This document shows positions 9,116 through 47,023 of a DNA stretch of 64,000 nt, piece by piece. Location of the stretch: positions 124,001 to 188,000 of the forward strand of contig NZ_JAOVZB010000003.1 in the NCBI RefSeq assembly GCF_025716875.1, read 5' to 3'. The DNA comes from Marinomonas sargassi (lineage in GTDB: Bacteria; Pseudomonadota; Gammaproteobacteria; Pseudomonadales; Marinomonadaceae). Under the pieces are notes generated by a model. The model had not been told where the DNA came from, made no database searches, and worked only from the letters and a program-made list of their open reading frames with translations. The translations under genes were made by a program, and so were the position numbers. The stretch's first letter is position 1; each line of letters opens with the position of its first letter.

Positions 9116-9161
9116 TTCAAATAAAAAAGGCGCGATATTTATCGCGCCTTTTTTATTTGAA
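9116..9161. terminator. Bidirectional terminator between queF and bcp
   Basis: A perfect 22-bp inverted repeat (9116-9137 and 9140-9161) contains the GC core AAGGCGCGAT and runs of A on the left and T on the right. It would terminate queF on the plus strand and bcp on the minus strand. Confidence 0.9.
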
Positions 9162-14549: not shown

Positions 14550-14592
14550 AAAAAAAAAAGCGCCGTTAAGTTATTTAGCGGCGCTTTTTTTT
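14550..14592. terminator. Bidirectional terminator between lolD and a DUF2062 gene
   Basis: A stem GCGCCG / CGGCGC (14560-14565 and 14579-14584), extended inward by A-T and G-T pairs, is flanked by a run of nine or more A on the left and T8 on the right. It serves both convergent genes. Confidence 0.9.
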
Positions 14593-43644: not shown

Positions 43645-44811
43645 TCATAAATAATATGATGTTAAAGGAGGAAAGCCGTTGAACTCGACTGCACTGTAGG
43701 TCGTTGTATAAGCGCCAGTGGAAAGCCAGAACATACGATCGCCAATTTCAAGATCAAGAGGTAGGCCGTACTTGTAATGTTCATACATAATATCTGCGCT
43801 ATCACAGGTTGGCCCTGCAATAATAACTTCTTCTAGTTCGCCTTTTTTTTCAACATGAATTGGGTATTTAATAGACTCATCTAATGTTTCAATGAGGCCT
43901 GAAAATTTACCAACATCCGTATAAATCCAGCGATTTAGAGCTGTAGTTGATTTACGAGAAATCAAGACAACCTCGCTGACTAATACACCAGCATTTGAAA
44001 TAAGCGAACGGCCGGGCTCTAAAATAATACGTGGCATTTTATCGCCAAAATCTTCTTCAAGAAATCGAGTGATCTCTTCGGCATAAGTGGCAAGTTCATT
44101 GGTTCTAGCTATGTAGTTAGCAGGAAAACCACCGCCCATATTAATCATCTCTAGCTCTATACCATCTTCTTCCTTTAGACGTTCAAAGATGACTTTAACG
44201 CTTGCGATAGCCGCATCCCATGCGCCTATATCACGTTGTTGAGAACCAACATGAAAAGAGACCCCATAAGGAGTTAGCCCTAATTCTTTTGCAAGAATAA
44301 GCAGATCCATGGCCATATCTGGACGACAGCCAAACTTTCTAGAAAGAGGCCAATCAGCAGTAACCGTACCTTCCGTTAAAATGCGCACATAAACATGTGA
44401 GCCTGGCGCTTGCTCCGCAATATTACGAAGGTCTGCTTCAGAGTCTGTTGCAAACATGCGCACGCCTTTTTCATAGAAATAACGTACATCTTTGGCTTTT
44501 TTGATGGTATTTCCGTAGCTTACTTGCTCTGGAGATACGCCGCCAATAGCCAGTAATTTGTCTAACTCATATCGAGATGCAACATCAAAATTTGAACCTC
44601 GATCTCGTAGTAATGTAAGGATTTCAGGTGCTGGATTAGCCTTGATAGCATAATAAATATCAGCTACTGGGAAGCCTTTCGTTAACTCAGAATAGGCTTC
44701 ATCAATAATCTCAGTATCAATAACAACAAAAGGCGTTTCTTTTGTTTCTGCAAAAGCTTTGAATCGAGAGAAGCGCTCTGTACTATAAAATGAATGGACG
44801 TCAATGGTCAT
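43645..44811 (-). CDS. speC: Ornithine (lysine/ornithine) decarboxylase, alanine racemase-like fold
   Basis: A 388-residue fold-type III PLP decarboxylase, very close to the Pseudomonas ornithine decarboxylase in sequence and length. The PLP lysine is K57 in YAIKANP, the glycine-rich phosphate loop is MGGGFPANY, and the dimer-completing cysteine is in GPTCDSADIMYEHY. It makes putrescine (perhaps also cadaverine) in polyamine synthesis. AAGGGG lies 7 nt before the ATG. The gap of about 265 nt upstream should contain its promoter. Confidence 0.94.
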   Translation of the reverse strand: MTIDVHSFYSTERFSRFKAFAETKETPFVVIDTEIIDEAYSELTKGFPVADIYYAIKANPAPEILTLLRDRGSNFDVASRYELDKLLAIGGVSPEQVSYGNTIKKAKDVRYFYEKGVRMFATDSEADLRNIAEQAPGSHVYVRILTEGTVTADWPLSRKFGCRPDMAMDLLILAKELGLTPYGVSFHVGSQQRDIGAWDAAIASVKVIFERLKEEDGIELEMINMGGGFPANYIARTNELATYAEEITRFLEEDFGDKMPRIILEPGRSLISNAGVLVSEVVLISRKSTTALNRWIYTDVGKFSGLIETLDESIKYPIHVEKKGELEEVIIAGPTCDSADIMYEHYKYGLPLDLEIGDRMFWLSTGAYTTTYSAVEFNGFPPLTSYYL

Positions 44812-45019: not shown

Positions 45020-45060
45020 TTAGAATAAAAAAGAGCCCTATGATGCATCATAGGGCTCTT
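45020..45060 (-). terminator. Terminator of the YedE gene pair
   Basis: A perfect 30-bp palindrome, AAGAGCCCTATGATG / CATCATAGGGCTCTT (45031-45060), is followed on the minus strand by a T6 tract. It ends the minus-strand YedE operon. Confidence 0.88.
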
Positions 45061-45076
45061 CAATATATGGGGGAAT

Positions 45077-45493
45077 TTAATTGGTTACTTTGGTTTGCAC
45101 GAAATGTAAGGCACTGCCAGCAATAAGGGCGGAGACGAAATATATGGCCTCAGCTGAGTTATTTGCTATAGCGGTAAGTCCAGGTCCTGGGCAGTAGCCA
45201 GATAACCCCCAACCAATACCAAATAGGCTGGCACCTAAAATGAGTTTGGAATCAATTTGTTTGAGTTTCGGAATGCTCCAATCATTAAAAAAGAGCGGTT
45301 TAGCGAGTCTTTTTTGAACCCTATAAGCACAGAGACCAACGCTAATAGCCCCCACCATCACAAATATTAATGATGGGTTCCACTCGCCAAAAATATTTAG
45401 AAAACCCAATACGACTGTTGGGTTAGCCATTTCTGAAACAGCTAAGCCTAAACCAAAGATTAGCCCTGATGTAAGAGAAATAAGAGCAAACAT
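45077..45493 (-). CDS. YeeE/YedE family half-transporter (DUF6691-like), second subunit
   Basis: A 138-residue membrane protein with about four helices. The GWGLSGYCPGPGL motif contains the conserved cysteine of YeeE/YedE sulfur-compound permeases. Together with the adjacent 134-residue protein it would rebuild one full-length YedE-type channel. Such pairs are linked to uptake of thiosulfate or other reduced sulfur species. It starts 15 nt after the partner's stop, so the two form an operon. Confidence 0.88.
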   Translation of the reverse strand: MFALISLTSGLIFGLGLAVSEMANPTVVLGFLNIFGEWNPSLIFVMVGAISVGLCAYRVQKRLAKPLFFNDWSIPKLKQIDSKLILGASLFGIGWGLSGYCPGPGLTAIANNSAEAIYFVSALIAGSALHFVQTKVTN

Positions 45494-45508: not shown

Positions 45509-45913
45509 TTAGATAAAAGAGGATATAAAAACAGTCAAAATGGCAGTGGCCATAAAAGTGACTGTAGCGATAATTGAGCGACCTGAAAGCCTAGATATTC
45601 CACAAACACCATGGCCGCTTGTGCACCCACCTCCTAATCGAGTTCCATAACCGACTAATAGTCCAGAGATGATTAGAAGAATAGGGCTTCTTGTTTCAGG
45701 GAAGGCTACAGTTTGCTCAACTAAAGAACCATAACTTGCACCACCGACAATTAAACCAATAATAAATAGTGCGGGTGCTAGTCGATCGCTTTTAAATAAG
45801 GCATTAGATAATATGCCGCTAACACCAGTAACACGACCCAAACACAATAAATAGATTAATGTGGCTAGCCCAATTAATGCTCCTCCTAGTAAGGGAGAGA
45901 TAAAAAGTTCCAT
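45509..45913 (-). CDS. YeeE/YedE family half-transporter, first subunit
   Basis: A 134-residue membrane protein with about four helices. The [12 protein letters not shown] motif carries two cysteines that in thiosulfate transporter YeeE relatives line the conduction path. It is the promoter-proximal gene of the pair. The ATG is 12 nt from a large two-part palindrome, suggesting repression by a small dimeric regulator. No regulator gene is next to it, unlike many relatives that carry an ArsR-type repressor or a persulfide dioxygenase. Confidence 0.9.
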
Positions 45914-45925
45914 GTACTGCCTCTT

Positions 45926-45969
45926 ATATTAGATATTTCTAATTACTATAAATTAGCAATATCTAATAT
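45926..45969. promoter_or_regulatory. Candidate double operator upstream of the YedE pair
   Basis: A 44-bp near-perfect palindrome with 19-nt arms (one mismatch) and a 6-nt centre. It is made of two smaller dyads, ATTAGATATTTCTAAT (45928-45943) and ATTAGCAATATCTAAT (45952-45967). This is typical of two adjacent dimer sites, as bound by ArsR-type sulfur-sensing repressors. The regulator identity is inferred. Confidence 0.6.
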
Positions 45970-46100
45970 TCAAGTGCTCTGTAATATTCGGGAGCTTTCT
46001 AATTTTCAAGATCTATAATATTTCATTAAATTTACATAGCTTTACTAGGGCAATTAAAGACTATTGATAATAGTCACGGTACCCTAATAGGCGAATATAA

Positions 46101-46592
46101 ATGAGACCTGATATGAACGAGTTATCTCTTGGTGCTTCTGCTGATGATGCTGAGTGCATCTTCCTTTTACCCAATAAACCATTACTTCCCGAAGACGAAG
46201 AAGGGAAGCAATTAACATCAGCCGATGTTGCTCATATTATTGAATTGAACGGAAATCATTGGCGAAAGATTTTTACCATCATGGCAAAACTAGCCTCGCC
46301 ATCTTCTGAAGATTGGCGCCAATTTAGAGACCTACAACTATTAGAAAAGGTAAGGTTGGTATTCTGTATTGAACAACTCGAAGATTTTTCTGGTCTGGTT
46401 TATCTAGTAGGGAATAGCTTTAAAGAGATTTTGCCTGTAAATGATCAGGCTTTAGCAGTTGGTGAAAAGCATACGGCTTATATTTATCAATCTCGTGTAT
46501 GGTGCCCATACTTAGATTACCGACAATTCCCTAACATACTTGTAGAGTCATTACGTGAACACCTTAAGGAGCGACCATGTTTGCATCGTTAA
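46101..46592 (+). CDS. Conserved hypothetical protein
   Basis: A 163-residue soluble protein I cannot assign. It has a proline-rich LLPNKPLLPEDEE stretch, a helical middle, and a C-terminal half with VYLVGNSFKEIL and WCPYLDYRQFPNILVESLREHL that looks like a compact alpha/beta domain. There is no signal peptide. The ATG at 46101 is taken; a second in-frame ATG at 46113 is possible. It overlaps the TerB-like gene by 16 nt, so the two are coupled. Co-function with TerB-like proteins is only inferred. Confidence 0.72.
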   Translation: MRPDMNELSLGASADDAECIFLLPNKPLLPEDEEGKQLTSADVAHIIELNGNHWRKIFTIMAKLASPSSEDWRQFRDLQLLEKVRLVFCIEQLEDFSGLVYLVGNSFKEILPVNDQALAVGEKHTAYIYQSRVWCPYLDYRQFPNILVESLREHLKERPCLHR

Positions 46593-47023
46593 AAAAATTA
46601 TTCGCAGTGCCAGTAGAGTCTAAAGAACAAATATCCTACCAAAAGGCCGTAGCCGCCTTGTTAATGGAAGTCATGTTAGCTGACCATGAAGTGGACCAAA
46701 GTGAAGAAGCAGAAATTAAAAAGTTCTTACTTGAGTCAACAGATCTTGGTGATGAAATCGATGCGCTTTATGAAGAAACCATAGCGGGAGTGGAAGAGGC
46801 TAATGACCTTTATCAATTTACTAGAGTGATTAACTCCGTTGCGTCTATTGAGCAAAAGATGGAGCTATTAAAGGGTCTATGGCGAGTAGCCTTAGCAGAC
46901 GATCATTTGGACTCCTATGAAGACCATAGAATACGACGAATCAGCGAATTACTTTTAATGCCCCATTCTGAATTTATCCAAGCTAAGTTGTTTGTTCAAA
47001 ACGAAGTAGCTCAAGAGAAATAG
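46577..47023 (+). CDS. TerB-like helical domain protein
   Basis: A 148-residue all-helical protein of the TerB/DUF533-like superfamily. Two acidic repeats are visible, LLMEVMLADHEVDQSEEAEI and LWRVALADDHLDSYEDHRI, each with Asp and Glu residues that bind metal in TerB. The rest of a tellurite resistance operon is missing, so this is probably a general member rather than tellurite resistance. It overlaps the upstream hypothetical gene. An imperfect hairpin (47071-47105) lies downstream. Confidence 0.88.
   Translation: MFASLKKLFAVPVESKEQISYQKAVAALLMEVMLADHEVDQSEEAEIKKFLLESTDLGDEIDALYEETIAGVEEANDLYQFTRVINSVASIEQKMELLKGLWRVALADDHLDSYEDHRIRRISELLLMPHSEFIQAKLFVQNEVAQEK

Follow-up and report, generated by a model that had tools for sequence, protein, structure and literature searches.

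What controls a transporter gene pair that has no candidate regulator beside it? The yedE1-yedE2 pair of Marinomonas sargassi raises this question in a 64,000-nt stretch of DNA (hereafter the window; C6:124001-188000) from a 3.14-Mb genome of 12 contigs. Both genes are read from the minus strand. yedE1 (45509..45913, with the first base of its ATG at 45913) encodes a half-size YedE/YeeE permease (PF04143, Sulf_transp) and yedE2 (45077..45493) the second half (PF20398, DUF6691); a perfect 14-bp stem with a T-run, read directly from the minus strand, forms a terminator-like end to the unit (45032..45059, palindrome centre 45045). Among the best 80 of 567 confirmed matches, the closest named relative of the YedE protein is that of Marinomonas hwangdonensis, at 70% identity. 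The divergent neighbours of yedE1 (46101-47023) encode a DUF6942 protein and a TerB-family protein, a like order being found by resemblance in genome G043.

Upstream of yedE1 lies a 44-bp inverted repeat (45926-45969) in which 19 of 22 positions pair; the 12 nt between 45926 and the ATG hold a Shine-Dalgarno-like AAGAGG (45920..45925, minus strand, read directly) 6 nt before the start codon. Two exact copies of ATTAG-N6-CTAAT are nested in the repeat, the promoter-upstream dyad 1 (45952..45967) and the promoter-downstream dyad 2 (45928..45943), with their centres 24 bp apart. These counts confirm the initial annotation, which had described a 44-bp double palindrome with two dyads ending 12 nt before the start codon. 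None of 100 Markov-1 resampled windows contained an even-centred palindrome of 19 or more pairs out of 22, and none of 300 had two exact dyads less than or equal to 60 bp apart; the expectation for a single exact dyad is 0.16 per window. The window itself contains a better palindrome, centred at 9138 (9116-9160; 21/22 pairs), so palindromy alone is not unique to 45926-45969. Further palindromes lie at 14571, 24814 and 48258.

A consensus scan of 45880-46100 found one promoter match nearby, on the minus strand, with a -35-like TTGAAT (45968..45973) and a -10-like TATAGT (45945..45950) that together fit 9 of 12 consensus positions across a 17-nt spacer; taken alone the match is not significant (1 found versus 1.2 in shuffles). 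TATAGT falls between the two dyads, and TATA occurs in the same 8-nt inter-dyad gap in 12 of 19 aligned relatives. Dyad 1 lies inside the -35/-10 spacer, while dyad 2 starts one nucleotide past TATAGT, over the expected transcription start. Such placement over the spacer and start would be a repressor layout, with promoter hexamers that are themselves putative and weakly evidenced. The initial annotation had suggested a cooperative operator; by arithmetic, the 24 bp between dyad centres amount to approximately 2.3 helical turns, so two bound dimers would not share one face of the DNA.

The dyads are kept across the genus. We read the region upstream of the yedE1 homologue in all 48 genus genomes, each of which has one, using dyad definitions picked after the alignment had been inspected. 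With W permitted at the middle base of each half, A-T-W-A-G-N6-C-T-W-A-T matched without mismatch in 40 of 48 upstream regions, versus 0.16 expected from dinucleotide shuffles. The aligned dyad 1 is kept in relatives, with dyad 2 kept 24 bp from it: the pair at this spacing, with at most three mismatches, is found in 23 of 48 genomes, and many of the upstream regions beyond those 23 have only one dyad or space the two differently. Searched for across the genus with at most one mismatch, the pair turned up in 19 of 48 genomes, each time before yedE, plus one extra site in G029, versus one match for the reversed control. The conserved alignment columns are the half-sites, and on this alignment the dyads are a phylogenetic footprint. 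In the 19 relatives that have a paired site (at most two mismatches), the overall palindrome scores only 12-18 of 22 pairs, versus 19 here. The nested near-perfect palindrome of the initial annotation is thus present in M. sargassi, but what relatives keep is the dyads and not the overall 44-bp palindrome.

None of the five PF01022 matches in the M. sargassi genome falls within the window, in line with the initial annotation, which had seen no suitable regulator beside the pair and had placed control elsewhere. Three of the five (L018, L019 and L020) are by eye Lrp/AsnC-type or MarR-fusion-like, and a second ArsR gene, at C6:427234, passes the PRK10141 metalloregulator model and was set aside. 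One Cys-pair ArsR-type gene, on another contig (C7:30565-30876), fits the expectation of remote control. Its 104-aa product (start codon chosen by us) scores 44.2 bits against the PF01022 ArsR winged helix (cut-off 22) and carries Cys35 and Cys101, the first ahead of the recognition helix, the second close to the C terminus; it is the only ArsR-type protein of this genome with the persulfide-sensor cysteine pair. The best solved-structure matches are three HlyU-type sequences (97-98 bits), followed by the Biofilm growth-associated repressor. The best NCBIfam model is BigR (NF040642), at 97.2 bits against a cut-off of 155, and for this reason we do not file the regulator as BigR itself. From these matches it probably belongs to the HlyU/BigR/SqrR-class ArsR proteins and would, like them, respond to persulfide. 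By eye, its neighbours are an exonuclease-like and a ligase-like ORF.

A close homologue of this regulator is encoded in 44 of the 48 genus genomes, with both cysteines in 43 of the 44 (the exception is G042); stops flagged inside three of the homologue matches fall past the second cysteine. An exact dyad precedes yedE in 39 of 43 genomes with the Cys-pair regulator, versus none of the four in which the regulator is absent (G035, G043 and G044) or lacks its cysteines (G042) (Fisher p 0.0004, uncorrected for phylogeny and with G041 dropped). On this comparison, the dyad tends to be present where the Cys-pair regulator is. The exceptions that do have the regulator carry the dyad before yedE at one mismatch (G002, G004 and G047) or two (G016). 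In G042 the match has three mismatches, which amounts to no dyad, and G035 has none; in G043 and G044 the best match has one mismatch and sits inside a different palindrome. This other palindrome, AATAGAATAAGCTTATTCTATT-like, lies upstream of yedE1 in both (L276 and L277), and a search with it found one occurrence in each genome and pointed to no regulator. G041, which is 77% complete, has the dyad, and no close regulator was found in it.

Beyond the genus, the dyad core TTAG-N6-CTAA is associated with the recognition helix of the regulator, SQSALSQHL. We compiled 57 regulator loci. An ArsR homologue is encoded at 29 of the YedE-relative loci (best 80 of 567 confirmed matches), one of which, L088, matched in part and scored under the cut-off; 29 further loci are the best-scoring end of 132 matching genomes among 274 searched. 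In the 250 bp preceding the regulator gene, TTAG-N6-CTAA is present at 24 of 34 loci with an SQSALSQHL-like helix (0.15 expected) and at none of the 23 loci whose helix differs (0.03 expected). Part of this between-group contrast (Fisher 3e-8, uncorrected for phylogeny) may stem from descent and base content; the excess over shuffles within the SQSALSQHL-like group is independent of it. The helix classes were set after the first seven such loci had been seen, and the 27 SQSALSQHL-like loci fetched after the idea had formed provide a cleaner test, with the motif in 19. Helix class is a text pattern, which takes in L259 (SQSALSQQL) and leaves out L026 (ISQSVISQHL, no motif). Devosia limi carries ATATTAGAAATTTCTAATAT between a gene for a Cys-pair ArsR protein and, divergent from it, a yedE1-yedE2-PDO-TIGR01244-like-SulP run, the PDO, TIGR01244-like and SulP-like genes being named by resemblance; this locus (L093), with a start codon placed by alignment, is scored as a miss in the 24 of 34 though the dyad is present. 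Tandem dyads 15 bp apart precede the regulator gene at L023, L252 and L257 and share a CTAA(A/T)TTAG junction, which also occurs within the V. cholerae HlyU site.

Among same-helix genomes, the dyad stands before the regulator's own gene in most outside Marinomonas and not within Marinomonas. In the 250 bp ahead of the regulator gene, an exact dyad is found at 0 of 44 Marinomonas loci, with one 1-mismatch match (G005); YgaV-like autoregulation is thus not seen at these 44 loci.

Drawing on the dyads, their conservation and their position, on the Cys-pair regulator gene and on the helix-operator association, all established by computation, we read the 44 bp as the two-site operator of an HlyU/BigR-class repressor that would act in trans and sense persulfide, with a probability of roughly 0.8. 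The initial annotation had proposed an operator for a repressor of the BigR/YgaV/SqrR type; genus conservation, the Cys-pair ArsR gene and the same-helix loci support that proposal.

Dyads with TTAG and CTAA halves are not known to be restricted to ArsR proteins, and a repressor of another family, such as MarR or TetR, might read them here with the ArsR-type gene as a bystander. An extended dyad in G043, which has no regulator, and the dyad before yedE in the incomplete G041 would fit such a protein. We consider it unlikely: the dyad precedes the ArsR-type gene itself at most same-helix loci, in dependence on helix type, it lies between the ArsR-type gene and yedE in Devosia, and the genomes with no exact dyad before yedE named above (G035, G042, G043 and G044) are those in which the regulator or its cysteines are lost. 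A second alternative keeps the regulator and changes the sign of its action, with an HlyU/BigR-class protein reading the site as an activator or anti-silencer, as reported for Vibrio HlyU, and not as a repressor. The closest solved relatives are indeed HlyU, which the excerpts available of PMC4330345 and PMC7551375 describe as an activator or anti-repressor in Vibrio, but here the dyads fall on the putative promoter core, in contrast to the V. cholerae site approximately 173 bp upstream (PMC4330345), and we think activation improbable.

The two-site operator reading predicts further targets. A whole-genome search with the bare dyad at one mismatch was uninformative (195 forward matches versus 131 in the control). 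Eight exact copies exist, three of them intergenic (two at yedE and one before a sulfur transferase gene) and five in ORFs of at least 100 aa. ATTAGA-N4-TCTAAT with at most one mismatch gives 26 forward sites versus 13 in the control; three are the intergenic exact copies, and the remaining 23 comprise 17 inside ORFs, five between genes and one, at position 43870 of the window, in ORF 43645-44811. By eye, no sulfur gene was seen at those five other intergenic sites. The initial annotation had suggested scanning the genome for more dyad copies and for an ArsR-type gene carrying one: a second promoter copy turned up, at C7:165282, and the ArsR-type gene exists, but the regulator gene has no exact dyad. 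The outcome that the initial annotation had named as refuting, an absence both of further copies and of any ArsR-type gene, was therefore not seen. The gene 44 bp downstream of the copy at C7:165282 (C7:165342-165671) encodes a lone TIGR01244 sulfur transferase, which also matches positions 2-103 of the Blh model. In 22 relatives the TIGR01244 domain is within a 530-554-aa frame, of which one was scanned and joins it to an SQR-like oxidoreductase, and a dioxygenase gene is present at all 23 such loci examined (the 22 plus G033). Next to these frames, the lone gene of M. sargassi seems to be either a remnant or a stand-alone form, with the dyad retained.

Across the 48 genomes, the 20-bp dyad ATATTAG-N6-CTAATAT has 14 sites versus none in the control. 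All 14 are intergenic (no ORF of at least 120 aa over the site), and nine stand before sulfur or thiol genes. Their targets are genes for dioxygenase (three), rhodanese-dioxygenase (one), sulfur transferase (one), YedE (one), peroxiredoxin (three), TsoY-family (two) and DUF2202 (three) proteins, of which one representative each was scanned for TsoY-family, DUF2202, peroxiredoxin and dioxygenase, the others being assigned by resemblance and the rhodanese by eye. The five dioxygenase/transferase sites are all in genomes without a FisR match. G043, a genome that has no regulator, carries its extended dyad (C21:78331-78350, L288), with a G+C-rich centre, before a peroxiredoxin gene.

FisR, a sigma-54-dependent persulfide sensor, offers a different reading, in which the dyads would be its activator sites, like those of the dioxygenase-SQR operon. 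Relatives do have a FisR-like gene transcribed divergently from the PDO / TIGR01244-SQR operon, with a dyad between the two in many of them. But a FisR-like N-terminus is found in 22 of 48 genomes and has no match in that of M. sargassi, and yedE dyad pairs occur in 13 of the 22 genomes with it and in 10 of the 26 without it. Moreover, most of 23 PDO upstream regions carry, by eye, a TTGGCAC-N4-TCTGC sigma-54-like motif plus separate TGYCA..TGNCA repeats, and no such sigma-54-like motif was seen by eye before the M. sargassi yedE. With neither a FisR-like match nor, by eye, a sigma-54 promoter, we regard a FisR/sigma-54 enhancer site as highly improbable and rejected it. Upstream of the dioxygenase gene at L195-L216, TGYCATWWNTGTCA-type repeats and a sigma-54-like motif are seen in most, and in many a TTAG-N6-CTAA-type dyad lies beside the repeats; going by these motifs, dual control of this dioxygenase by FisR and the ArsR-type regulator is possible. 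In G043 and G044 (L210 and L198), the dyad upstream of the dioxygenase gene is degenerate too.

An RNA hairpin in the yedE mRNA leader was likewise rejected and has very little chance of being the function of the palindrome: the minus-strand RNA has a predicted fold of -14.7 kcal/mol (z -6.3) and 74.2% of cells are paired versus 29-46% when slid by 1-3 columns, as expected of a fold taken from one row, but across 20 aligned sequences pairing (74.2% versus 73.1%) and covariation (10 double changes versus 8.0) hardly exceed shuffles, 6 of 18 pairs are broken in at least 10 of the 20, and, the putative -10 being the hairpin loop, a transcript from the promoter mapped here would lack the 5' arm. 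Since the half-sites are kept, the long palindrome is not and RNA pairing is close to that of shuffles, the functional unit is putatively two protein-binding dyads.

A two-site operator for an HlyU/BigR-class repressor has several parallels in characterized systems, which we draw from excerpts of the cited articles. In Acinetobacter baumannii, BigR regulates a yeeE-yedE-pdo2 operon (PMC7315123). Both there and, by prediction, here, a Cys-pair persulfide-sensing ArsR-type repressor stands over a YeeE/YedE transporter pair; unlike in A. baumannii, the Marinomonas pair has no dioxygenase and no adjacent regulator, the regulator gene being on another contig. Vibrio cholerae HlyU has a nearly identical recognition helix and a Cys pair and is among the closest solved relatives (PMC4330345, PMC10509353). 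Its footprinted site holds TTAA-N6-CTAA, one mismatch from TTAG-N6-CTAA, a closeness that 28 of 1000 base shuffles equal (PMC4330345). HlyU activates the hemolysin gene from far upstream, whereas the Marinomonas site overlaps a putative sulfur-transporter promoter. Rhodobacter capsulatus SqrR and E. coli YgaV (PMC9774250) are of the same regulator class as the Marinomonas candidate. The SqrR operator ATTC-N8-GAAT spans the same 16 bp as the Marinomonas ATTA-N8-TAAT (PMC9774250), the inner base of the half-sites being C/G in the one and A/T in the other. YgaV binds over its own promoter (PMC9774250), in contrast to the Marinomonas regulator gene, which has no exact dyad of its own. In the bigR-blh systems of Agrobacterium and Xylella (PMC5823870), BigR controls a sulfur transferase/dioxygenase; the second Marinomonas dyad fronts a Blh-like TIGR01244 domain, but this gene lacks the dioxygenase part.

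This kind of sulfide-response switch is known; added here are the assignment of a remote regulator, the genus-wide target set and the helix-linked operator word. Among the matches listed for open-licence PMC literature, as far as their excerpts go, we found no statement of a TTAG-N6-CTAA operator, and among those on persulfide/BigR none with an occurrence of Marinomonas. The Rv2034 motif, as excerpted, differs, with CTAA as its central spacer only, and the ArsR regulators named in the excerpt of PMC5343134 are SahR and SamR only.

In the mechanism that we propose, the dimeric winged-helix repressor encoded at C7:30565-30876 would bind each dyad through its SQSALSQHL helix, one dimer over the -35/-10 spacer and the other over the start region of the yedE1-yedE2 promoter. 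Going by this layout and by the family, RNA polymerase would be kept off while Cys35 and Cys101 are reduced. When persulfides or polysulfides rise, sulfur would bridge the cysteines, the repressor would be released and the YedE pair made, a release switch that we infer because of A. baumannii BigR, YgaV and HlyU. Beyond the YedE pair, this repressor would also act on the lone TIGR01244 sulfur transferase gene (C7:165342-165671) of M. sargassi; its predicted targets in related species are genes for persulfide dioxygenase, peroxiredoxin and TsoY-family proteins.

More broadly, TTAG-N6-CTAA could be the operator code shared by all persulfide-sensing ArsR regulators of the SQSALSQHL subclass, a code different from the ATTC-N8-GAAT of SqrR. 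The Marinomonas sensor would then have been uncoupled from autoregulation to become a trans hub, with sites moving between sulfur genes, and the dyad directly before the dioxygenase/transferase gene in genomes without FisR would mark a swap from sigma-54 activation to repressor control. We hold this wider proposal, taken as a whole, to be evenly balanced. The analysis links a published sulfur-sensor class to a specific DNA word, open to searches of any genome. For a transporter pair without a regulator in its neighbourhood, it names a testable one, together with predicted targets across the genus, and it matches a sensor without sulfur-gene neighbours to its putative sites by sequence alone, in one genome.
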